DNA of 56,726 bases from an uncultured Ignavibacteriota bacterium. GTDB taxonomy: Bacteria > Bacteroidota > Ignavibacteria > Palsa-1295. The stretch lies in NCBI GenBank assembly GCA_903900335.1, contig CAIUMP010000034.1, positions 1 to 56,726 of the forward strand, in the 5' to 3' direction. Under the pieces are notes generated by a model. That model worked only from the letters and a program-made list of their open reading frames with translations, made no database searches and was not told the DNA's origin. Positions 3 to 56,726 of the stretch are shown piece by piece; within the stretch, counting starts at the first letter, position 1; each line of letters opens with the position of its first letter. The translations under genes were made by a program, and so were the position numbers.

Positions 3-1355
3 CTCGTCGAGTACGATATTGCCGATCTCTTCCCGCTAACCGACGCCGAAGAAAAGCGCATCAAGCCCTTCAGCTTCCAGTCAGCATTCAAGGAGGTCAT
101 GCAGCGAGGTGGGTTCGATGCGATTGTGGGGAATCCGCCGTTCGTTTCCTATTACGGGGGAGATGCGATGGAATTGTCTGATGGTATGAGGCTTTACTAT
201 TCCAAGAATTACGACGTAGTAAGAAAGGTCAACGATCGCATAAATTCATTCTGTCTCTTTATTGAGAGAGCCTCTAAAACTGTTAAGCCTGATGGTAGGA
301 CTGGTTACATAGTCAATAAGACACTTCTTGAACTCCCCTCATACCAATCGACAAGGGAGTATTTGATCAAAAAGACACTTCTTGATCAGATAATTACCTT
401 CAACCTCAATGTTTTCAAGGTGGTAGTTGACACCTGCGTTCTCATCTATCGGCCCTCAACTTTGGTGGAGGGTAATTTTACGAATGTGTTCTGGGATTGC
501 AACTCTGAAGAAGCGTTGACTGCTGTCAATTCAGAACCCATTCTACAGAGTTCCTTCCTTGAGAATCGTTACTCAGAACTTGTCCAAGTGAGGGAGAGCT
601 CCCTATTCCGAAAAATGGAGGCCGTCTCCGTTCTTGCGGACAAAATTGTTGTGGTTAATCGGGGAATGAACATTGGAGGCAGAGCGGAGTACTTTCTCTC
701 TAATAATAAAAAAAGCGATTACTTTCACAGGTATTTATTGAAATCACCAAACGTTAGTCGCTATTCTCTTCACTGGAGCCCTGATGAGGAGAATTGTTAC
801 GTATTATTCGACACAGAATTAGAGAAAGATCTAAAGCGCAAAGGTGCAACCATCGCTTTGGGGCAGGAGGCAAGATTCAACCAGGAAAAACTCTTAATCA
901 ATGAAGCTTCTCAAGTACTGACTGCAACGTATGATGATACTAATTTCTACGCTTCGTATAGTTTCCACGTTGCCACACTCCTTGACTCTAGATATTCGCT
1001 GAAGTATGTACTTGCACTTTTTAACTCAAGGTTACTTAGCTATTACGCAATCGGGAAGAACATCCTGCGAAAGGGAAAGCTTGCAACGCCCCATCTAGGA
1101 ACCAAGGGGGTTAGCGCCCTGCCGCTCCGTTCCATTGACTTTTCAAACTTGAACGATGAGACGAGACACACTGCACTTGTTGCCCTCGTCGATCAAATGC
1201 TCGACACGAAGAAGCGCATAGCAACGGCGCAACGTGACTCAGACAGGGAGCGCCTTCAACTCAAGTGCGATTATTTGGATGGGGAGATTGATAGGCTGGT
1301 TTATGGGCTTTATGGGTTAACGGCGGAGGAGATTGGGATAGTGGAGGGAAGCTGA
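3..1355 (+). CDS. Type IIG-like restriction enzyme/adenine methyltransferase, C-terminal part (5' end outside window)
   Basis: The reading frame is open from the first bases of the window, so the start lies upstream and only about 450 residues are visible. The motif NPPF (bases 132-143), preceded by FDAIVG, is methyltransferase motif IV of N6-adenine DNA methylases, the catalytic site that flips and methylates adenine. What follows is long and of the kind seen as target-recognition region in Eco57I-type enzymes that combine methylation and cleavage in one polypeptide; the nuclease part, if any, would be outside the window. Bases about 200-1150 look more AT-rich than the neighbouring core genes, which suggests transfer. 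The last ~160 bases (from 1197) recur four more times downstream. Confidence is high for a DNA adenine methylase, moderate for type IIG. Confidence 0.85.
   Translation, partial: LVEYDIADLFPLTDAEEKRIKPFSFQSAFKEVMQRGGFDAIVGNPPFVSYYGGDAMELSDGMRLYYSKNYDVVRKVNDRINSFCLFIERASKTVKPDGRTGYIVNKTLLELPSYQSTREYLIKKTLLDQIITFNLNVFKVVVDTCVLIYRPSTLVEGNFTNVFWDCNSEEALTAVNSEPILQSSFLENRYSELVQVRESSLFRKMEAVSVLADKIVVVNRGMNIGGRAEYFLSNNKKSDYFHRYLLKSPNVSRYSLHWSPDEENCYVLFDTELEKDLKRKGATIALGQEARFNQEKLLINEASQVLTATYDDTNFYASYSFHVATLLDSRYSLKYVLALFNSRLLSYYAIGKNILRKGKLATPHLGTKGVSALPLRSIDFSNLNDETRHTALVALVDQMLDTKKRIATAQRDSDRERLQLKCDYLDGEIDRLVYGLYGLTAEEIGIVEGS
1197..1348 (+). repeat. Methylase-tail repeat, native copy 1
   Basis: This is the 3' end of the intact methylase gene, from ATGCTCGACAC to GTGGAGGGA. 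It encodes the run MLDTKKRIATAQRD followed by CDYLDGEIDRLV and a final IVEG. The GTGGAGGGA that encodes VEG also looks like a Shine-Dalgarno sequence for the ATG at 1357. The four downstream copies were recognised by matching against this segment. Confidence 0.9.
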
Positions 1356-1356
1356 A

Positions 1357-1650
1357 ATGAAAAATGGGAATATGATCGAGCAAGCGGAGCTGGCGAAATT
1401 CGAGAGCAATCTAACCGAACGGCTTCGGAAGAGACTACCTTCTACTTTCAATCATATCTATGCCGAGAGCGATCCTGCGCTTGGTAGGCTCAACCTGATA
1501 GACACTGCCACACGTATTGAGAATTACGAAGAACAGCGCACACTTATTTTATATCAAAAGCGAGCTACCTTTTGGATTAAGTGGGCAACCATTGTAATGG
1601 CGCTGGCGACCGTCTCGCAAGTTATCGTGGCAATTTGCAAAAAGCCTTAG
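1357..1650 (+). CDS. Small membrane-anchored protein of unknown function
   Basis: A 97-residue protein I do not recognise. The first ~70 residues are hydrophilic and charged; residues about 73-93 (WIKWATIVMALATVSQVIVA) form one hydrophobic segment close to the C-terminus, so it is probably a tail-anchored inner-membrane protein facing the cytoplasm. The ATG lies one base after the methylase stop codon and 9 bases after GTGGAGGGA, which is both methylase coding sequence and ribosome binding site, so its translation is probably coupled to that of the methylase. This suggests a partner role in the restriction locus, but that is inference. An ATG at 1372 is an alternative start. Confidence 0.6.
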   Translation: MKNGNMIEQAELAKFESNLTERLRKRLPSTFNHIYAESDPALGRLNLIDTATRIENYEEQRTLILYQKRATFWIKWATIVMALATVSQVIVAICKKP

Positions 1651-1875
1651 TCGCGGAGCGACGGCGTACTCGCAGCCCAGGGTGAAGCGTAGCGGAACCC
1701 TGGGGTAGGGATTGCCAGATAAGCTATGAGTCCTGAAAGGACGGAGTACTCCTGTCACGTTCGCACACACCGCCCTTTCAGGGCTCCATACAATTTCCCA
1801 CTCGTTCCCTGGGGTTTCGTCCCTCGGACTTCACCCCAGGCTGCGGGTACATCGTCGCTCCGCGACTGGGGGGTG
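1651..1875. repeat. Block of short palindromic repeats
   Basis: About 225 non-coding bases packed with small hairpins: TCGC/GCGA at 1651-1661, an arm pair CCCAGGGT/ACCCTGGGG at 1676-1705 around GAAGCGTAGCGGA, GTCC/GGAC at 1730-1742, GCCC/GGGC at 1772-1784, CCTGGGGT/ACCCCAGG at about 1808-1840, and GTCGC/GCGAC at 1854-1866. These are REP-like elements. The last ~70 bases resemble 3813-3885, which likewise precedes a methylase-tail copy, so palindromes and tail travelled or were duplicated together. Confidence 0.75.
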
Positions 1876-2036
1876 ATGCTCGACACAAAGAAGAAGCCCG
1901 CCACGGCGGGCCGCGACGCGGGACTCTGACCGCGAACGTCTTCAGGCGAAATGCGATTATTTGGATGGGGAGATCGATCGGCTTGTTTATTCGTTGTATG
2001 GGTTGACGGAGGAGGAGATCAGGATAGTGGAGGGGG
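1876..2036 (+). repeat. Methylase-tail repeat, decayed copy 2
   Basis: This repeats the 3' end of the methylase gene: ATGCTCGACACAAAG, then a GCCCGCC-AC-GGCGGGC palindrome (1896-1911) in place of part of the native sequence, then a region that still encodes DSDRERLQAKCDYLDGEID and SLYGLTEEEIRIVEGES after a one-base frame change. Its reading frame would end in the TGA that overlaps the GTG start of the next gene at 2041 (GTGA), and its GTGGAGGGG supplies the ribosome binding site. It is a remnant of another, related methylase gene end. Confidence 0.85.
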
Positions 2037-2040
2037 AATC

Positions 2041-3195
2041 GTGAAGCTTCGGAATTATATTTTCATAACTAACCTCTTGTGTGCTTTTCTACTGCTGCCG
2101 AGCGCGCCTTGTCGTGCGCAATCGGATTTTTTGGGCGTTAACATTATTGAATTCGAGCACGATGTCTTCGGTAGATCGCTGGACCAAAAAACCGGCAAGC
2201 TTATCGATTGGGAGGAGACGAAGAAAGAATATGCCCGGATGATGTCGGATGTGCTGCAAGCGTACCTCCGACAACCTGACGTGCGGCTCCCACTAACGAC
2301 GGAAGGGGAGAAGCAAGCGGTGCGATTCTTTCAACAGCATGTATTCGAGGCCGGAAAATATGTGCATAATACCGTCTATCTCATCTCTCAGACCGTTACC
2401 GAGCGTCAAATCGACTGCGATATGGCGTGCCTCTACATTGTGGATTTTCTGCATGCGCTTGGCGTGCCGTTGCACGACATGGGGTTGCTGACGATCGAAG
2501 ACATGCACTCGATCGAAGGACATGTCATCGTCCGCGTTGGAGAACGGTACTATGAACCGGAGCCTGTCCTGAAAGCTCCGGATTCGAATTCCAAATACCG
2601 GAGCTATTCCCGAATGGAGGTGATGAGTAAATACCCGGATGGATATCTATTTTCCGCTACCGATTCCGTCGTGACACAAAACTGGTTAGGCGTTGTAGAA
2701 GCATACTCCTGGCAGGTCGAACGATTGGACCCCTTCGTGAACGGCCCGGAGGATACGGGTGCCTTCCATCCGTACCCTGAACTTCCCAAATACCTTCGCC
2801 AGTGTAATCTCTTTCTCGACGAAGCACTGCCATTCGCGGAACATGCTGTGGAACAGCATCCGAGGTGCGCGGACTTGTTATCAAAACTTGGGACGCTTCA
2901 GTCTATCAAAGCTCGAACGATAATTCTGAGCGGGGATACAGCGGCTGCGATCCTCATGGTCCAGACCGCAATTGAGAATTTGCATGAATGTACGGTTATC
3001 TCCCCGTGGTGTGTATCGGCGCGTATGAATCTCGCAATGTGCTATGATAGTCATGTCCTGCACATTCCCGAGGCAGCAATTACGGAGTCCGAAAATGCGC
3101 TCTCTATGATGCCACCCGATGGCACCTATGAGCGTTCCGTTCTGCTGGGGCGGATCGAAAAATGGAATCGGGAGATGAGGGAGGAAAAGAAATGA
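2041..3195 (+). CDS. Exported protein with transglutaminase-like core and helical C-terminal repeats
   Basis: A 384-residue protein. The GTG at 2041 is chosen because it follows AGTGGAGGGGG and gives a proper signal peptide (KLRNYIFITNLLCAFLLLP, cleavage near CRAQ, residues 24-27); the longer frame from 1951 only runs back into the methylase-tail repeat. Residues about 120-175 resemble a transglutaminase/cysteine-protease fold: Cys126 or Cys130 in IDCDMAC, His161 in EGHVIVRV and an acidic site in YYEPEP. The C-terminal third (about 265-385) is helical and TPR-like. It would act in the periplasm. The enzymatic assignment is tentative; no catalytic activity can be claimed. Its stop codon overlaps the first base of the next methylase-tail copy (3194). 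Confidence 0.6.
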   Translation: MKLRNYIFITNLLCAFLLLPSAPCRAQSDFLGVNIIEFEHDVFGRSLDQKTGKLIDWEETKKEYARMMSDVLQAYLRQPDVRLPLTTEGEKQAVRFFQQHVFEAGKYVHNTVYLISQTVTERQIDCDMACLYIVDFLHALGVPLHDMGLLTIEDMHSIEGHVIVRVGERYYEPEPVLKAPDSNSKYRSYSRMEVMSKYPDGYLFSATDSVVTQNWLGVVEAYSWQVERLDPFVNGPEDTGAFHPYPELPKYLRQCNLFLDEALPFAEHAVEQHPRCADLLSKLGTLQSIKARTIILSGDTAAAILMVQTAIENLHECTVISPWCVSARMNLAMCYDSHVLHIPEAAITESENALSMMPPDGTYERSVLLGRIEKWNREMREEKK

Positions 3196-3353
3196 TCAAA
3201 TGCTCGACACGAAGAAGCGCATAGCCACGGCGCAACGTGACTTGAGACAGGGAGCGGCTTCAACTCAAGTGCGATTATTTGGATGGGGAGATTGATCGAT
3301 TGGTTTATTCGTTGTATGGGCTGACGGAGGAGGAGATTAGAATAGTGGAGGGA
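3194..3353 (+). repeat. Methylase-tail repeat, decayed copy 3
   Basis: This copy begins at GATCAAATGC, which matches 1191-1200 of the native gene, exactly inside the TGA stop (3193-3195) of the preceding gene, and it lacks the GC-rich palindrome of copies 2, 4 and 5. It is the copy closest to the native sequence (CGCATAGC-ACGGCGCAACGTGAC is kept) apart from a small frameshift near 3242. GTGGAGGGA at 3345-3353 serves the ATG at 3363. Confidence 0.85.
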
Positions 3354-3362
3354 AAATAAACG

Positions 3363-3812
3363 ATGCCACGAACAATCGAAGGTGTAACATACGAGTCCGT
3401 AGCCTGGGACGTGCGGGAGTTTCTTGATACGGCACCCATGGGCCAACCCGGCGAGCGGCAGGAAGTACAGCAATCTGTTCGGATAGACTGGGAAACCAGC
3501 GCAGCAAAGCAGCAACTCTTCGGACGGCTCACCGTGCAATTTTTCGACGCTGCATCGAAAAAAGAACTCATCCGCATTGTGCTTATCGGCCAATTCGTTG
3601 TGGATCGTGTCCTTCGCGATGCGCTGCACGGCGATATGGTCGCACTCCCCAAGCCGGTTTGGGCAGCGATGGCGCGAGAGATCTATGACACGGCTCGCGG
3701 TATCGTCTTAGCCAAGTCGAAGAAGCTAAAATTCTCTGGCATCCCAACCGTGCCGGATGAGGCGTTCCTTTCCGATATCGCACCGGATGATTATGGATTA
3801 TCGCGAAATTAA
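3363..3812 (+). CDS. Conserved-looking hypothetical protein, possibly SecB-like
   Basis: A 149-residue soluble protein without signal peptide or membrane segment. I do not recognise it securely. The central and C-terminal pattern (IGQFVVD, then LPKPVW, then IYDTARGIVLAK and a short SGIPTVP stretch) resembles SecB-like fold proteins, which bind unfolded chains and occur both in export and as chaperones of toxin-antitoxin systems; I see no toxin or antitoxin next to it. The start at 3363 sits 9 bases after the GTGGAGGGA of tail copy 3. Alternative: an unrelated family-specific protein. It is the last of the inserted genes in this island. Confidence 0.5.
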   Translation: MPRTIEGVTYESVAWDVREFLDTAPMGQPGERQEVQQSVRIDWETSAAKQQLFGRLTVQFFDAASKKELIRIVLIGQFVVDRVLRDALHGDMVALPKPVWAAMAREIYDTARGIVLAKSKKLKFSGIPTVPDEAFLSDIAPDDYGLSRN

Positions 3813-3885
3813 TCCGTTACCTTGGGTTTGTCCTTCGGACTCCACCTTGGGCTGAGGGTACATCGGCGCTCCGCGACTGGGGACA
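3813..3885. repeat. Palindrome block preceding tail copy 4
   Basis: Non-coding. It contains an imperfect ACCTTGGG/CCACCTTGGG arm pair around TTTGTCCTTCGGACT and ends in CATCGGCGCTCCGCGACTGG, closely parallel to the last ~70 bases (1806-1872) of the block before copy 2. The parallel shows that the block plus tail is one duplicated module. Confidence 0.7.
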
Positions 3886-3975
3886 ATGCTCGACACAAAG
3901 CGGAAGCCCGCCACGGCGGGCCGCGACGTGGGACTCTGACCGCGAACGTCTTCAGGCGAAGTGCGATTATTTGGA
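3886..3975 (+). repeat. Methylase-tail repeat, truncated copy 4
   Basis: This copy has the ATGCTCGACACAAAG start and the GCCCGCC/GGCGGGC palindrome of copy 2, then CTCTGACCGCGAACGTCTTC, and breaks off after GCGATTATTTGGA. The part that would encode DGEIDRL and the ribosome binding site is missing, and no gene follows it. Confidence 0.85.
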
Positions 3976-4203
3976 CGCAGCACCGTAGTCCCGAAGGGAC
4001 GACCTGTTAATAGCCGGGGATGAAGCGTAGCGGAATCCCCGGTCGGCGAATCACCACCTCGCCAAAAAGTCCCGAAGGGACGACATGTCCACCGTTGTGA
4101 CATGCCGTCCCTTCGGGACTACTCGCTCCACCTCTTTCGCATCCGGTGACTCACGTCACCGGCTATTAACATACCGTGCCTTCGGCACTATAACGTCAAT
4201 CCA
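3976..4203. repeat. Block of short palindromic repeats
   Basis: Non-coding and hairpin-rich. GTCCC/GGGAC around GAA occurs at 3988-4000 and 4069-4081, the same motif with the loop TTC occurs at 4107-4119, and CCGGGGAT/ATCCCCGG around GAAGCGTAGCGGA lies at 4014-4042, with GGTGAC/GTCACC at about 4145-4161. The inner GAAGCGTAGCGGA is identical to that of the hairpin at 1676-1705, so these are members of dispersed REP-like families. Confidence 0.75.
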
Positions 4204-4381
4204 CTGCTCGACACGAAGCAGAAGCCCGCCACGGCGGGCCGCGACGCGTGACTCTGACCGCGAACCGCATCGTAGGCGATGCTTGCTTCAGGCGAAGTGC
4301 GATTATTTGGATGGGGAGATAGACCGTTTGGTTGATGCGTTGTATGGGTTGACGGAGGAGGCGATTGGGATCGTGGAGGGA
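4204..4381 (+). repeat. Methylase-tail repeat, decayed copy 5 with palindromic insert
   Basis: The copy runs from CTGCTCGACACGAAG through the GCCCGCC/GGCGGGC palindrome to a complete 3' end with GTGGAGGGA (4373-4381). It still encodes DGEIDRLVDALYGLTEEAI and IVEG. Within GAAC|CTTCAGG about 21 bases are inserted that contain the perfect arm pair GCATCG-TAGG-CGATGC. No convincing gene follows the ribosome binding site; the next ~100 bases hold further palindromes. Confidence 0.85.
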
Positions 4382-4480
4382 CGGTCATTGTCGCGGAGCA
4401 ATGGAGGGATGAGCTACTCGTGTAGCGCGGACCATTCGACAAGCTCAGGGCATGCTTTAGTCTGTGACCGGGGTGGGGTT

Positions 4481-4760
4481 CCAGACTAAAGTCTGGGCTA
4501 TACGGGTAGAGCCGCATGGCTACAAATGTGCCGTGCCTCCGCCATTCCAGTGTTGGGTAGAGACGCCCGACCTCAATAAAGTTGAGTGCAGGCTTTACGC
4601 GCTTTCCAGATTTCTGCCGGTATTTGGGAATTTCGGGAACAGCAAAAAATTTATGGAAAGCGCTTTCTGTCGTAGAGACAAAAAGCTGTAAGTTGTTGAT
4701 TCATATGAGAAGTTCATGAACTATGAATTGACACACACAACAAAATGTGTTTACGCACGC
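4481..4760 (+). repeat. 280-base dispersed repeat, copy A (inverted partner at 39064-39343)
   Basis: This non-coding stretch matches the reverse complement of 39064-39343 over its whole length with only scattered differences. It begins with the palindrome CCAGACTAAAGTCTGG, includes AAAGCGCTTT and the perfect palindrome GTTCATGAAC, and ends ACAACAAAATGTGTTTACGC. No convincing reading frame runs through it. It lies 88 bases beyond the 3' end of coaE, and its orientation relative to coaE is the same as that of copy B relative to rlmD. Together with the flanking bases 4382-4480 and 4761-4848 it fills the gene-free space here. Confidence 0.9.
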
Positions 4761-4848: not shown

Positions 4849-5505
4849 TTACTCTTCCTCTTCAATGCTTCTCAGCGGCTCTTCCGGTAGTGGCCGCAGC
4901 GCGAGAGCGTTGAGCATGGCAAGCAGAGCCGCGCAGCGCTTTTCAAATTCGGCTTCGGTGCCGTAGTTCTCCACCACAAAATCGGCTTCGGAGCGGTGAA
5001 CGGTCTCCCAATGCTGTTCGGCTAAGCGCTTTCGTGCGTCCTCTTCAGTCACGCGCCCGGAGGCGGCAAGCCGAGCAATCACTGCATCGTCCGGGGTATC
5101 GACGAGGATGATGTAGTCGAAATCTGTATCGAGATCCAGTTGCAGCAGTATTGCTGACTCCACCGCTACCATCTTCCCCGGTTGGGACCTCCGAAAGACC
5201 TCATCCACTGCCTGCATCACCGCTGGGTGCACGATCGCCTCCAGCATCTGGCGCTTCTCGGCATCCTGAAAGATCTGCGATGCGACAAATCCGCGATCCA
5301 GCTTGCCATCTCGGTATGCAGCCGCGCCGATTAGCTCCGCGATCCGCGCTTGGAGGCTGGGGTCGCCTTGCATGAGCTCTTTAGCGAGCTGGTCGGTATT
5401 GACGACTTCGATCCCGCGCTCGGTCATCATCCGTAGCAGCGTGGATTTCCCACTGCCAATCTTCCCGGTTACCCCGATACGAATTGCGCGTGTCATAGTC
5501 GTCAT
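4849..5505 (-). CDS. coaE: Dephospho-CoA kinase
   Basis: A 218-residue kinase that phosphorylates dephospho-CoA at the ribose 3' hydroxyl, the last step of coenzyme A synthesis, in the cytoplasm. The P-loop GVTGKIGSGKST lies at residues 12-23, followed by NTDQLAKEL, the conserved HPAV and a LID region with RVTEEDARKRLA; length is normal for the family. The C-terminal ~25 residues are acidic (EEPLRSIEEEE). The first ATG is at 5505, with a second at 5496 that would remove three residues. It stands alone on the minus strand, although coaX, another CoA-pathway kinase, is 3 kb away. Confidence 0.93.
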   Translation of the reverse strand: MTTMTRAIRIGVTGKIGSGKSTLLRMMTERGIEVVNTDQLAKELMQGDPSLQARIAELIGAAAYRDGKLDRGFVASQIFQDAEKRQMLEAIVHPAVMQAVDEVFRRSQPGKMVAVESAILLQLDLDTDFDYIILVDTPDDAVIARLAASGRVTEEDARKRLAEQHWETVHRSEADFVVENYGTEAEFEKRCAALLAMLNALALRPLPEEPLRSIEEEE

Positions 5506-16780: not shown

Positions 16781-16827
16781 TTTACATTTTGGTGACAACC
16801 TTCCGGATGGCCTCGACTATATTGTCC
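16781..16827 (+). promoter_or_regulatory. Duplicated promoter-like leader, copy 1
   Basis: TTTACATTT, then GTGACAAC, then CGACTATATTGTCC, 26 bases before the ATG of the lipoprotein gene at 16853. The same three blocks with the same spacing occur before the paralogue at 17577-17623. TATATT could be a -10 box. Shown by conservation between the copies, not by a known consensus. Confidence 0.5.
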
Positions 16828-16852
16828 CATATCCTAAACCAAGGGGGACAGT

Positions 16853-17539
16853 ATGCTTTTTCACCACAATAGAGTCGTCGAGATCGCATTCGCAATGGTG
16901 CTGATGCTGCCCTCCGGCTGTGCTTCTCATTTGCCACTCAACACCGATCCTGAGACGGCAGAGAAGATACTTCGAGCAAGCGAATCGGACCCGGTGCGGG
17001 TGATATTTGACAGTGGGGACACTGCGGTTTGCTATTCCGTGATTATTCGTGAAGATTCGACCCGATGGAAAGAAGCGAAGAGGCCTCATTGGAAAACCTC
17101 AAATCAGGCGACGGAATTGGTGGTACCCACGGCCAAAATAAAAGCCGTAATCGTCAGCACACCCAGGCCAGGGATCGGCTTCTTGATCGGTGCGGCGGTA
17201 GGCTCATTCGCAGGCGGATTGATTGGCAATGCCTCGGGCAGCGCACCTACTCCGCCAACATCGAGCAATCCGTTCCTTGCGACCGGGCAAGCGATTGGAT
17301 CAGCTGGACAAGCCTATGAGACGATGCTCATCGGCGCGGGGGTGGGTGCCCTTGTTGGTGGATTAACAGGGATGATCGTTGGCGGTTCAAGCCAGACCGT
17401 TTATAGCGGGGAAAATGGCGAAAACAGCAGCGTGCCAAAATGGGGATTGGTATGGGATGCCGCACATTCGTGTTGGGTGGCCCCAAAACCGGAAAAGACT
17501 TCCGGCCGGGACTCGCTGACGAGCGCACCTCGAAAATAG
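16853..17539 (+). CDS. Glycine-zipper lipoprotein of unknown function, paralogue 1
   Basis: A 228-residue envelope protein. The N-terminus is a lipoprotein signal with lipobox LPSGC (Cys23). Residues 30-60 (DPETAEKILRASESDPVRV) are shared with the next gene. Two glycine-rich hydrophobic stretches, about 103-120 (IGFLIGAAVGSFAGGLIG) and 162-183 (MLIGAGVGALVGGLTGMIV), are glycine zippers of the kind found in outer-membrane-associated or pore-like proteins. The C-terminus is polar. Function unknown. AAGGGGGACA precedes the ATG. The neighbouring paralogue and its duplicated leader show a tandem gene duplication. Confidence 0.8.
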   Translation: MLFHHNRVVEIAFAMVLMLPSGCASHLPLNTDPETAEKILRASESDPVRVIFDSGDTAVCYSVIIREDSTRWKEAKRPHWKTSNQATELVVPTAKIKAVIVSTPRPGIGFLIGAAVGSFAGGLIGNASGSAPTPPTSSNPFLATGQAIGSAGQAYETMLIGAGVGALVGGLTGMIVGGSSQTVYSGENGENSSVPKWGLVWDAAHSCWVAPKPEKTSGRDSLTSAPRK

Positions 17540-17576
17540 CAAGTATATTCCGCTCCCTTGAGTGCATTTTCGCCAT

Positions 17577-17623
17577 TTTACATTTCCGTGACAACGGCGT
17601 CTCGGGCCGCGACTATATTGTCC
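17577..17623 (+). promoter_or_regulatory. Duplicated promoter-like leader, copy 2
   Basis: This is the partner of 16781-16827: TTTACATTT, GTGACAAC and GCGACTATATTGTCC, with the same 26-base distance to the ATG (17649) and a GGAGGGGACA ribosome binding site. The conserved spacing suggests that both paralogues keep the same promoter. Confidence 0.5.
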
Positions 17624-17648
17624 GATAACCTGAAACGGAGGGGACAAA

Positions 17649-18237
17649 ATGCTATTACACCACAAGCAGATCACGACGTTTCCTTTGGTAATCCTAGTCG
17701 CTTTGCTTTCCGGTTGCTACACTCAAGCTGCCTTCACGACTGATCCGGCGACTGCAGAGAAGATACTCCGCGCGAGCGAATCGAATCCTGCTCAAGTGAT
17801 CCTTGACGGAGATGACGCCGTCGTCTGCTATGCGGTGATTATCCGGCACGATTCCATCAGATGGCAAGCGGTGACCACTCATGCCCAGAAAGCAGTTCCG
17901 AGCTCGAGGGTTAATGCCGTAATCGTTAAGAATGGGAGTCCGGGCATTAGTACGGGGGGGCGGTGCATTGCTTGGACTTACTCTGGGAGGCTTGATCGGA
18001 GCTGTTAGCACGAGCTCCACCGAAGATCCGAACTTGCATGGTATTACAGGATTGGAAAATTTCAGTAGGAATACGGAATACACCCTTACCGCAGCGGGCT
18101 TGAGCGCCTTGGCCTTTGGGGTCGCACGCGGGTGCGCAGAAAACCACTCCAGCCTTGAATTCCTAAAGAGCCGAACCCATGGTTTGGTGGGCGGCAGGCC
18201 GGGGGGCGGTTCAGAAAGGATTGACTCGATCGTCTGA
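17649..18237 (+). pseudogene. Glycine-zipper lipoprotein paralogue 2, frameshifted at a poly-G tract
   Basis: The first 119 codons (17649-18008) encode a lipoprotein signal with LLSGC (Cys23), then DPATAEKILRASESNPAQV, matching paralogue 1. After the seven-G run at 17954-17960 the frame leads into an unrelated tail and stops. In the next frame (open to 18237) the expected glycine zipper continues (GALLGLTLGGLIGAV). Removing one G restores a ~195-residue protein. The region after 18110 resembles paralogue 1 only weakly, so further changes are possible. It may be a decaying copy, a sequencing error in a homopolymer, or a contingency tract that switches expression. Confidence 0.7.
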
Positions 18238-37531: not shown

Positions 37532-39025
37532 ATGCAAGAATCGACAGATTCCATCCCAAAGCAACCGATCGACCTTCCGACGGCGGCAGACCCGACTCCC
37601 CCTAAACGCCTTCCCAAGCCGGAACGTGGCGAACGTTTGGAAATTTTTACCGATTCTTTTGCTTTCGAAGGAAAAGCAGTCGGGCGCCGCGAGGACGGCT
37701 ACGTCATTTTCGTCGAAGGGGCCCTCGCAAAAGAGCGCGTTATTGCGGAAGTCTTCAAAGCCAAAGGCTCCTACGCCGACGCTAGGATCATCGAGGTGCT
37801 GGAGCCATCCCCCGAGCGCCGAACACCGCTTTGTCCTTATTTCGGCATTTGCGGCGGCTGCGCCCAGCAGCACATGACCTACGAATCCCAGCTCTACTGG
37901 AAAAAGGAGCAGGTTCGCGACCTCTTCAGAAAAATCGGCAAGATCGAAGAGCCGCCAGTCCGCGATGTGATAGGCTCGGAGGCGGAATTCCACTACCGCA
38001 ACAAGATGGAATTCTCCTTCTCAGATCAGCGCTGGCTGACCGACGACGAGATCGGCAGCGACTCGGCGCAAGACCGCTTCGCACTCGGACTTCACGTCCG
38101 CAACCGCTTTGACCGCGTCATTGACGCCAAGACCTGCTTCTTGCCAAAGCCGATCGTCACGGACATTCTCGATTTCACTCGCCGATTCACCATCGAGCAC
38201 AAGCTCGGCGTCTATTCGCCAGACACGACCCCCGATGGCCTCATGCGCTTCCTGGTCGTCAAGACCAGCCACACTACGGGCGAGATCATGGTCAATCTCG
38301 TCACCAGCCGCGAGGAGCCCGAAACTATGCAGCGATTTACCACCGACCTGCTCTCCTCTGTCCCATCAGTGACAACAGTCGTGAACAACGTCAACACCCG
38401 CCGCGCACAGGTGGCAGTCGGGGATTTTGAGAAGATCTATCTTGGCGACGGCACCATCCGCGACACTATCGGCCGCGCCGAATACCGCATCAGCGCTAAC
38501 AGCTTCTTCCAGGCCAACACACCACAGGCGGAGCGCCTATACGCAGTCGCGGCGGAATTCGCCGAGCTTCAGAAGACGGACACCCTCTGGGATCTCTATT
38601 GCGGCACCGGCACCATCTCGCTCTTCGTCGCCGACCGAGTCCAAAGCGTACTCGGAGTCGAACTGGTCGAAGCCGCCATCGCCGATGCCCGCTCCAACGC
38701 GCTCTCCAACGGCGTCTCTAACGCCGATTTCATCGCCAGCGATTTGCGCAAGGCCCTGACCACCCCAGAATTTCTCGCCGAACATCAGCGCCCCGACGTC
38801 ATGATCATCGACCCACCACGCAGCGGAATGCACCCTGATGTCATCCGCGAGATACTCAAACTCGCACCCGAGCGCATCGCCTACATTAGCTGCAACCCCG
38901 CAACCCAGGCCCGCGACGTGGAGCTCCTCTCCGCTGGCTACGAGCTGCTCGATCTCCAGCCCGTCGATATGTTTCCGCAAACGTATCACATCGAGTGCGT
39001 TGCAAAACTGCGGAGACGCAGCTAA
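37532..39025 (+). CDS. rlmD: 23S rRNA (uracil-1939-C5) methyltransferase, RlmD/TrmA family
   Basis: A 497-residue RNA uracil-5 methyltransferase. An N-terminal TRAM domain (about 35-95) is followed by an iron-sulfur cysteine set, Cys101, Cys107 and Cys110 in CPYFGICGGC with a fourth Cys in DAKTCFLPK. The methyltransferase domain has FFQANTPQAERLY, LWDLYCGTGTISLF (SAM site), IDPPRSGMHPD and the catalytic Cys in YISCNPATQARD. The first ~30 residues are Pro-rich. RlmD and RlmCD cannot be told apart by eye. It diverges from the outer-membrane-like gene; a 280-base repeat follows 38 bases after its stop. Confidence 0.9.
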   Translation: MQESTDSIPKQPIDLPTAADPTPPKRLPKPERGERLEIFTDSFAFEGKAVGRREDGYVIFVEGALAKERVIAEVFKAKGSYADARIIEVLEPSPERRTPLCPYFGICGGCAQQHMTYESQLYWKKEQVRDLFRKIGKIEEPPVRDVIGSEAEFHYRNKMEFSFSDQRWLTDDEIGSDSAQDRFALGLHVRNRFDRVIDAKTCFLPKPIVTDILDFTRRFTIEHKLGVYSPDTTPDGLMRFLVVKTSHTTGEIMVNLVTSREEPETMQRFTTDLLSSVPSVTTVVNNVNTRRAQVAVGDFEKIYLGDGTIRDTIGRAEYRISANSFFQANTPQAERLYAVAAEFAELQKTDTLWDLYCGTGTISLFVADRVQSVLGVELVEAAIADARSNALSNGVSNADFIASDLRKALTTPEFLAEHQRPDVMIIDPPRSGMHPDVIREILKLAPERIAYISCNPATQARDVELLSAGYELLDLQPVDMFPQTYHIECVAKLRRRS

Positions 39026-39063: not shown

Positions 39064-39343
39064 GCGTGCGTAAACACATTTTGTTGTGTGTGTCAATTCA
39101 TAGTTCATGAACTTCTCATATAAATCAACAACTTACAGCGTTTTGTCTATAAGACAGAAAGCGCTTTCCATAAATTTTTTGCTGTTCCCGAAATTCCAAA
39201 ATACCGGCAGAAATCTGGAAAGCGCGTAAAGGCTGCCCTCCACTCTATTGAGGTCGGGCGTCTCTGCCCAACACTGCCATGGCGGTGGCACGGGACATTT
39301 GTAGCCATGCGGCTCTACCCGTGTAGCCCAGACTTTAGTCTGG
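39064..39343 (-). repeat. 280-base dispersed repeat, copy B (inverted partner at 4481-4760)
   Basis: This is the reverse complement of copy A with scattered substitutions. On the plus strand it starts GCGTGCGTAAACACA and ends with the palindrome CCAGACTTTAGTCTGG. It sits between the 3' ends of rlmD and the T9SS cargo gene. Bases 39344-39438 hold another short GGACTAAAGTCTGCTC-type remnant and nothing coding. Confidence 0.9.
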
Positions 39344-39438
39344 GAGCCATGCGCGGACTAAAGTCTGCTCTACACGGGGATCCTTCGACTTTTCCTCACC
39401 AAATCTGAGCTTGCCATAAGAAGTTTACGGAGCTGAAC

Positions 39439-41316
39439 CTACTTCACCACCTGTAGCTTCACCATCCAACCCATGATCGCATTCTGAGCCTTCACGTAAT
39501 ACGTGCCCGCCGGATAGCGCGACCCATCGAACGTGAGCCGCAGCCCCATATCTGCCTCCGGTGTGCCTTCGTAGAGCGTGGCAACCACATTATCAAGCTG
39601 GTCATACACCCGCACCCACGCCGGAAGACCACCGGAGAGGGCGGTGACGTTAACAGTTGATAAACCTGCCGACGGATTTGGGAAGACACTCAGCGACAGC
39701 GGCTCCCGGCGAGTATTATCCGAACCACCCAAAGCGATCTTGTAAGCCGGAAGTGTAATCAACTGCGCACCATACGATTCGCCAGAAGCATTATACGCAG
39801 TGACTTTGAAGTCAGGTGACATCGAGACCAAATCACCGCCGGGGTAGCCAGCACCGGTGCTGGTTGCGGTCCCAGCGAGTGTTTGCACAAGCTGATAAAC
39901 CCCACTCCAATCTTTTTGATAGACATGGATTTCAGTTGGCGGATTCTCATAAGAAGCGGAAGATGAGTAGTTCTGAAAATCCCAGCTAAGACTGGCAATG
40001 AAGTGCTCAACCCACTCCGAGACTTCCCACTCGATGTTGGTCGTATACCCACCGGAGAGATTCTTCACCTGCGCGGGCCGCATCGGAGGATGTGAGGAGT
40101 TCATATTGAACTGATAGATTGCCTCAATCGATGTGGCTTCGTCTGATAGAGTTGGCCAGCCAGGACTAACCGCTTGTTCGAGGTCGTTTGTAAACTCACG
40201 TTGCGTGGAAGAGAGTGTCGTAGCCACGGTGCTAAAAATTTTGAGAGGTTCACCAACATCATCGTTGTCGCGACCAGCGTAACGATCCGCCCTGAACGGC
40301 GCATCGTCATATTTATCGTACACATTCCAGAGAAAACTCGCATAGCCATAGATCGGATAGTAAGTATTTGCGACATCAGAGTAGGTGCATTCCTCCCGAT
40401 TGTCATCATTCCAATTAATGGCTTCATCATACACCTTACTCATCCAATTCCGCGCGGCAAATTGGTGCAATTCGCCAAAATCTTCTACGTAATCTCTGCC
40501 AAGCCAAGTTTGAGGCGCGATTGTATAGTTGAGATGATGTCCATACTCATGGCTAACGACGTGTGTGGTTATGCTGTTATCGGTAAAATTAATCTTCGGG
40601 CCGTCGCATTTACCGCCACCATTGCAAGAACCGCCCCGTGGGCAAATAACTGTCGGGGCCTGTGCAGGATACAAGCCGAGACGTGCATGATCAAACTCCC
40701 AATTCAGCTGCATGTATCGAAGGGTGCCTCCAAAAACCGGATTTAAGGTGATTTTGCCGTGGGAGTCTATGAGATTAGCCGCCGGACAGGCTTGTGCGAA
40801 TGAAGAACCTTCTTGGAAAGTCTTGGCAGGTGAGATGGCAGAACATAAACCGTTGATTGTGTAGCTGCTCAGTAAATTGCAGTGAGAGGTTGCCACACAA
40901 GGCCACCATGAAAAGGGATTGTAGGAGTCGTTACCGAGTGAGCATGCATCGTTCCAAGTGGTGACCAGGAGGACAAAATCGGTGTAGTGAGACCACAACA
41001 TTCCAATATTATTGGTATAGAAATCAAAACTGAAATTTCCATCAACATCCGCCGTACACCAATGCGTCCCGTGTGTCGTGAGCCCAAACCCGCCAATGCA
41101 CCCCGGTACGGGATGCGAGAAGTTCAAATTCACAGGTCCTAAAGGAGGCCACTGCGGCGAGGGGGAGCCGGTAACAGTAGGATCGTGAAAGAGCAGTGCA
41201 ACGCGAACGCCATACGCTCCCTTCATGACATTGCCTTCGTCGGCATTAGAATAGAGCACCTTACCACTAAATTTAAAACGAACGCCTCCCGGAAACTGAG
41301 CGGGATCTGTTTGCAT
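39439..41316 (-). CDS. T9SS-sorted metalloprotease-like protein, C-terminal part after an in-frame stop
   Basis: A 625-residue frame without signal peptide of its own. It contains HVVSHEYGHHLNY, an HExxH zinc motif, preceded by a Gly/Cys-rich PRGGSCNGGGKCDGP loop and followed by GELHQFAARNW, suggesting a zincin-like metalloprotease. The last ~80 residues are a type IX secretion sorting domain: LSVFPNPSAG, VRVYDQLDNVVATLYEG and YPAGTYYVKAQ. The same frame continues upstream through a TAG codon (41344-41346) into the segment 41347-41799, which has the signal peptide. I read both as one gene of about 786 codons interrupted by one amber codon. Protease activity is not proven. Confidence 0.8.
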   Translation of the reverse strand: MQTDPAQFPGGVRFKFSGKVLYSNADEGNVMKGAYGVRVALLFHDPTVTGSPSPQWPPLGPVNLNFSHPVPGCIGGFGLTTHGTHWCTADVDGNFSFDFYTNNIGMLWSHYTDFVLLVTTWNDACSLGNDSYNPFSWWPCVATSHCNLLSSYTINGLCSAISPAKTFQEGSSFAQACPAANLIDSHGKITLNPVFGGTLRYMQLNWEFDHARLGLYPAQAPTVICPRGGSCNGGGKCDGPKINFTDNSITTHVVSHEYGHHLNYTIAPQTWLGRDYVEDFGELHQFAARNWMSKVYDEAINWNDDNREECTYSDVANTYYPIYGYASFLWNVYDKYDDAPFRADRYAGRDNDDVGEPLKIFSTVATTLSSTQREFTNDLEQAVSPGWPTLSDEATSIEAIYQFNMNSSHPPMRPAQVKNLSGGYTTNIEWEVSEWVEHFIASLSWDFQNYSSSASYENPPTEIHVYQKDWSGVYQLVQTLAGTATSTGAGYPGGDLVSMSPDFKVTAYNASGESYGAQLITLPAYKIALGGSDNTRREPLSLSVFPNPSAGLSTVNVTALSGGLPAWVRVYDQLDNVVATLYEGTPEADMGLRLTFDGSRYPAGTYYVKAQNAIMGWMVKLQVVK

Positions 41317-54853: not shown

Positions 54854-54961
54854 GTCATTGCGAGGAAACCCCATAGGGGTGACGAAGCAATCCGTTGTTA
54901 ATGAGCAAACCCGTCCTCAACAACGGATTGCTTCGTCGGCCTTCGGCCTCCTCGCAATGAC
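54854..54961. repeat. CATTGCGAGG palindromic repeat, complete copy
   Basis: Two arms of about 46 bases: GTCATTGCGAGG ... GACGAAGCAATCCGTTGTT, and their near-complement ending GATTGCTTCGTC ... CCTCGCAATGAC. It lies between the convergent 3' ends of the tricorn-like gene and araB, where the folded RNA could end transcription from both sides. The family is the widely dispersed GAAGCAATC repeat of many bacteria. Confidence 0.85.
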
Positions 54962-56647: not shown

Positions 56648-56726
56648 GTCATTGCGAGGAAACCCCTTAGGGGTGACGAAGCAATCCGTTGTCGAGGGAT
56701 TGCTTCGTCACCCCTACGGGGTTTCC
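56648..56726. repeat. CATTGCGAGG palindromic repeat, cut by window end
   Basis: GTCATTGCGAGGAAACCCC, then TTAGGGGTGACGAAGCAATCC, then the inverse GGATTGCTTCGTCACCCC running into the window end. It is the same family as 54854-54961; the arms around GGAAACCCC are closer to each other here. The full right end lies beyond 56726. Confidence 0.85.

Follow-up and report, generated by a model that had tools for sequence, protein, structure and literature searches.

A dispersed intergenic repeat in an Ignavibacteria genome that joins a REP-like hairpin to a core most likely derived from a leader element

The contig studied here, from an uncultured Ignavibacteriota bacterium (56,726 nucleotides, the whole of which is called the window), contains two inverted copies of a 280-nt sequence lying 34 kb apart, each just beyond the 3' end of a gene. 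An earlier note made from the letters of the window had suggested a structured RNA element, a transcription end signal or a MITE-like element, which raises the question of what kind of sequence this is and how it came to be repeated. With moderate confidence, we propose a dispersed two-part element in which a REP is joined to an amplified promoterless form of a leader, spreading in a MITE-like manner.

Composition and copy number of the repeat

A search of the genome to which the window belongs aligned positions 4481-4760 (+) with 39064-39343 (-) at 95% identity over 280 nt, a match far above chance expectation (E 1.6e-123). The repeat search of the window returned one inverted pair, with arms 4476-4760 and 39064-39348 of 285 nt that are 94% complementary. 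Gene calls, for which an in-house hexamer script was applied to the fetched stretches, place both copies in intergenic, non-coding DNA; a coaE-like gene has its stop 88 nt from the end of copy A, and the stop of an rlmD-like gene is 38 nt away from copy B. The non-coding inverted pair of the earlier note is thus confirmed, and the internal palindromes that it described are present. The features are as follows.

4476-4760 (+): copy A, composite repeat of 280-285 nt (repeat and genome search)
4481-4510 (+): REP-like unit of copy A, hairpin CCAGACTAAAGTCTGG then GCTATACGGG, the GTAG foot on the opposite strand being altered (sequence; query positions 1-30 recur independently)
4481-4496 (+): palindrome CCAGACTAAAGTCTGG (sequence)
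4511-4631 (+): spacer found in the two window copies only (other copies match from about position 120-155 onward)
4632-4740 (+): core A, member of a family of about 32 copies, with a GGGAAC box at 4635-4640 (genome search and alignment)
4665-4683 (+): inverted repeat TTCTGTC-N5-GACA(A/G)AA of core A, inner arms invariant
4685-4692 (+): 8-mer GCTGTAAG, counterpart of the site duplicated by IS1595-type transposons elsewhere (alignment with loci L077 and L112)
4711-4722 (+): dyad AGTTCATGAACT, within which TTCATGAA is the box kept in congeners
4712-4721 (+): palindrome GTTCATGAAC (sequence)
4721-4756 (+): fast-changing right end of core A
4849-5505 (-): coaE-like gene, 3' end towards copy A (named from the sequence as read, without a profile search)
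37532-39025 (+): rlmD-like gene, 3' end towards copy B (named in the same way)
39064-39348 (-): copy B of the composite repeat (repeat and genome search)
39068-39192 (-): core B
39104-39111 (-): TTCATGAA box of core B (sequence)
39132-39159 (-): inverted repeat and 8-mer target site of core B
39322-39343 (-): REP-like unit of copy B, its GTAG-hairpin reading GTGTAGCCCAGACTTTAGTCTGGG on the plus strand (sequence)
39439-41316 (-): next gene beyond copy B (gene call)

With copy A as query against its own genome, G000, which measures 4.0 Mb and has the window as contig 34, the full 280 nt is common only to the two window copies. However, further copies of parts of it were found genome-wide: positions 152-276 recur at about 30 more places with 81-97% identity, and positions 1-30 recur independently at many others. 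The earlier note had held a structured or mobile element to be unlikely if no more copies existed, which is not what the search shows. The pair is real, but the 280 nt are not a single repeat unit. Copy A is a composite of a REP-like hairpin of ~30 nt on the left and a core of ~110-125 nt on the right.

A profile run over fetched stretches together with a covariance model gave 33-37 core matches, which merge to about 32 copies (counted from sequence-search matches), all intergenic and 26 of them near-identical. One copy is split by a transposon. In another, the ends of contigs C10 and C24 overlap by 134 identical bases, so that the two end matches represent a single copy; judging from this overlap, the contigs are probably adjacent. 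In the alignment of the copies, the ~90 nt that end with TTCATGAA show a column identity of 90-100%, which falls to 0.6 within 30 nt beyond this box and to 0.4 in the flanks. The amplified subtype is characterized by GGGAACMGC, the inverted repeat TTCTGTC-N5-GACAAAA and TTCATGAA; the inverted repeat and the TTCATGAA box stand at a fixed spacing, as in the leader of the genus described below. Exact-pattern scans for the inverted repeat in public genome and viral collections, from which the own or near genomes may be absent, gave no match.

The left 30 nt combine a GTAG-type foot, a short palindrome and many intergenic copies, the features by which a REP is recognized. Read on the other strand, the unit consists of GTGTAG followed by a palindrome, and copy B retains GTGTAG with CCCAGACTTTAGTCTGGG. 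Dissemination of REPs by TnpA-REP (RAYT) transposases is treated in PMC8266576, and REPINs in PMC3116915. Unlike REP, BIME or REPIN sequences, the repeat includes a core of ~110 nt that is no REP itself and has no second REP bounding it. In 13 copies the REP lies 150-162 nt before the anchor (the end of TTCATGAA), the distance being exactly 158 in most of them and 150 or 162 in a few. The two window copies have it at 239. About half of the core copies have a REP upstream, and in these the shared DNA begins sharply at the REP; about half have none.

Six Y1 (RAYT-type) transposase genes (L083-L088) are present in the genome, and several of them are flanked by GTAG-hairpin repeats of their own, different in sequence. 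None of the six has the window REP within about 1.5 kb, and no cognate RAYT flanked by it was found among them. The possibility that the core is the end of a Y1 transposon was rejected, as no core lies near any of the six genes.

Relatives in congeners and the proposed leader architecture

The inverted-repeat pattern has diverged relatives in two congeners; a model partly built from these scores them at E about 1e-11, the training sequences matching by construction. The box AGTTCATGAAGYACARAYG occurs at 38, 18, 13 and 5 places in four congeners, at 8 in the own genome and almost nowhere in other genera. Since relatives were collected via one box, their orientation is unbiased by choice, while classes may be missed. 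The distance from the inverted repeat to the ATG of TTCATGAA is a constant 50-51 nt across species, though the linker changes. A GGCACC-type box is found upstream in 39/59 relatives (12.6% expected per search interval), and a -10-like box stands 18-21 nt before it in 34 of these 39, as against 1.6% at random positions.

Downstream of the relatives, the next gene runs in the same direction in 47 cases and in the opposite one in 5 (8 others lie inside genes and 5 are undecided), in a set that includes three non-amplified members from the own genome, one of them ahead of dnaK. By contrast, the amplified form of the own genome gives 17 codirectional against 11 convergent cases among 28 scored copies, three divergent copies included (Fisher p 0.003 for the two sets), and a -10 box at the leader spacing is found in 0/31 of its copies. 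Because of this absence and the lack of orientation bias, the amplified form behaves as a dispersed, REP-linked sequence. In species pairs, elements are found ahead of orthologous genes for an S66 peptidase, a trypsin-like protease, a DUF2520 protein, rplX and dnaK, and the loci of an aminotransferase-class ligase gene and an ECF sigma factor gene link the amplified form to this set. The downstream genes include those for GAPDH, transaldolase, LpxC, enolase, dnaK and rplX.

The congener relatives resemble 5' leader RNA elements of the riboswitch-like or regulatory type in their -10 box, conserved boxes and codirectional downstream genes, but differ from them in having no Rfam match, no covariation and diverse downstream genes, and the window form further lacks the -10 box. 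From the position of the -10 box we infer that the congener leader would be transcribed from its own promoter, with the GGCACC-type box near the RNA 5' end, the AGTTCATGAAGCACAAAYG box further down and a housekeeping gene next. The right part of the window repeat would then be a species-specific amplified form of this leader element of a Kapabacteria genus, the leader having come first and the repeat later: one subtype without a -10 box would have multiplied to its present copy number irrespective of gene orientation, while the left part would be a REP hairpin of the sequence kind spread by Y1 (RAYT) transposases. Some of the copies that stand ahead of genes may retain a regulatory role.

A contrasting explanation, which we regard as unlikely, is that every copy works in cis as a leader or intercistronic RNA element with sites for a protein or small RNA and is kept by selection, the copies placed without regard to orientation driving unannotated small transcripts. 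The core is much more constant than its flanks, and this strict conservation might equally reflect function in every copy; the spacing kept despite linker change, the orthologous positions and the housekeeping genes downstream point in the same direction. However, the 31 own-genome copies without a -10 box, the 11 copies aimed at a convergent gene and a covariation no stronger than in shuffles (see below) argue against it. Moreover, the element is absent from the rlmD site in all six congeners examined.

A broader reading, in which the leader-derived origin of the window repeat is one episode, appears possible but somewhat short of an even chance. It holds that Kapabacteria share across the family an undescribed type of leader before housekeeping genes, in which a -10 box is followed at constant spacing by RGGCACC, close to where the RNA would begin, and then by boxes that differ between lineages, TTCATGAAGCACAAAYG for example. 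In the window species, on this reading, the promoter of one such leader was lost, and the fusion of that leader to a REP gave rise to a mobile repeat that also serves an IS1595 transposon as a site-specific landing pad. Among the matches listed, TATATT-N12-16-GGCACC is more frequent than its reversed control in the majority of the family's genomes, with up to 55 per genome, and the enrichment is strong in three congeners (G005, G006, G010, G009 and G011 are examples of genomes showing it). A family-wide promoter or leader architecture is a possible explanation of this enrichment. If the fixed -10/RGGCACC spacing holds across the whole family, it would point to a hitherto unknown feature of transcription or translation starts in Kapabacteria.

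Two further observations concern the boxes. The three non-amplified box relatives of the own genome are clustered on contig C17 at 513, 2961 and 5379 (L164, L153 and L169), and one of them precedes dnaK, as in G005. In addition, a multi-copy gene of 384-454 aa (L181, L191, L199, L212, L170, L172) encodes (G)(I/T/R)(V/I)HE(A/T)QM, the DNA for VHEAQM being nearly the same string as the non-coding 3' box; Pfam gave no match for the two members scanned.

RNA structure, termination and mode of spread

The data do not demonstrate a structured RNA element. The inner arms of the inverted repeat are invariant, and the outer pairs change without compensation beyond shuffles: 2 pairs changed on both sides, a value reached in 194/500 shuffles. 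The 110-nt core folds barely better than shuffles on both strands (mean z about -0.7 and -1.0). Folding of the full 280 nt is good on either strand (z -4.2 and -4.7), which their many palindromes would lead one to expect. Rfam returned no match to the window repeat, nor to the element in 15 stretches carrying relatives.

That the repeat serves coaE, rlmD and other genes as a terminator or 3'-UTR element is highly improbable. Both window copies do face gene 3' ends, as had been observed in the earlier note, but this position does not hold for the family, in which a codirectional gene start lies ahead in 17/28 scored copies. Moreover, neither copy A nor copy B has an intrinsic terminator (a GC-rich hairpin with a T run); the one site that resembles a terminator, at 39375-39387, lies outside the repeat. 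The proposed transcription end signal thus finds no support.

Other candidates were tried and rejected. Small proteins read from ATGGGCACC or from the ATG of TTCATGAA have random lengths and frames that are not kept across species. As for a promoter of the ECF or sigma70 type within the core, inspection by eye gave no second hexamer that recurred consistently, and a sigma70 scan found no promoter. A TnpB/IscB guide RNA and an integron attC were considered and set aside, no supporting feature being apparent.

Of the kinds of sequence named at the outset, a MITE-like element fits best, given the many near-identical intergenic copies, although the aligned copies revealed neither terminal inverted repeats nor target duplications of the core itself. 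A classical MITE with short ends that escape recognition, mobilized by a DDE transposase, seems quite improbable. The many near-identical copies and a weak inverted similarity inside those of full length (CGCAAA...TTTGCG) are in its favour, but right ends vary among otherwise near-identical copies, and neither target duplications nor an autonomous partner were found. In our preferred reading of a REP joined to a former leader, the core would most likely have spread in MITE-like fashion, either carried along when REPs disseminate or through conversion, because half of the copies start sharply at the REP and occur in any gene orientation. The half of the copies that have no REP, and the fact that no Y1 transposase gene adjoins the core or the window REP type, count against it.

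ERIC and Correia-type sequences are dispersed intergenic repeats with imperfect palindromes, and Correia elements have terminal inverted repeats. Compared by description, the window repeat resembles them in its size of about 110-130 bp, its imperfect palindromes and its tens of near-identical copies, which lie between genes only and belong to one lineage, but it appears to derive from a promoter-linked leader and is without terminal inverted repeats of the Correia kind. Most probably it is an ERIC/REP-type repeat specific to this lineage that arose from a leader element. If so, it would offer a traceable passage from regulatory leader to dispersed repeat, with the ancestral form still present in sister species. 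A literature search on mobile promoters yielded nothing usable.

Insertion of IS1595-type transposons and other repeats of the window

The core copy split by a transposon lies on contig 4 of G000 (L077:4076-8273), where a 4.2-kb element with an IS1595-type transposase (PF12762, PF12760) and one passenger gene with a GmrSD_N domain is flanked by an 8-bp duplication, GCTGTAAG. In G010 (L112:4029-7134), an IS1595-type transposon with other passengers interrupts a copy in the same register, with the 8-bp duplication CCCGTAAA. These are separate insertions, since the flanking genes differ. Apart from one weak match, no further copies of the transposon ends were found in 13 genomes. The two transposons are thus the only copies of their kind in the two species, and they occupy the same nucleotide of the element at different loci; under uniform insertion, we estimate such a coincidence at about one in 10^9. 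The inverted repeat is a preferred landing site for an IS1595-family transposon. Copies A and B themselves carry no such insertion.

Insertion sequences that target REP palindromes, such as IS1397, ISPsy8 and ISPpu9, have been described (PMC1525189). As in those cases, all the IS1595-type copies found here occupy one and the same base in a palindromic element that is itself repeated; however, the target here is the core and not the REP, and IS1595 is not named among the families listed there (IS3, IS110, IS4, IS256 and IS5). A transposon that selects a single base of a repeat as its target would provide a tractable system for the study of target recognition in the IS1595 family.

Finally, we noted other repeats in the window. 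An Rfam match to Acido-Lenti-1 RNA (RF01687) at 4143-4189 (+), with 45.6 bits against a gathering threshold of 37, sits within a cluster of other short repeats shortly before copy A, and the interleaved direct-repeat families D1-D3, D6 and D7 have copies at 1191-4382. A 45-nt direct repeat (GTCATTGCGAGGAAACCCC...), 98% identical, occurs at 54854-54898 and 56648-56692. At 16809-17868, families D4 and D5 recur in register, 796 nt apart, with 73-80% identity, which suggests a tandem duplication of this region.
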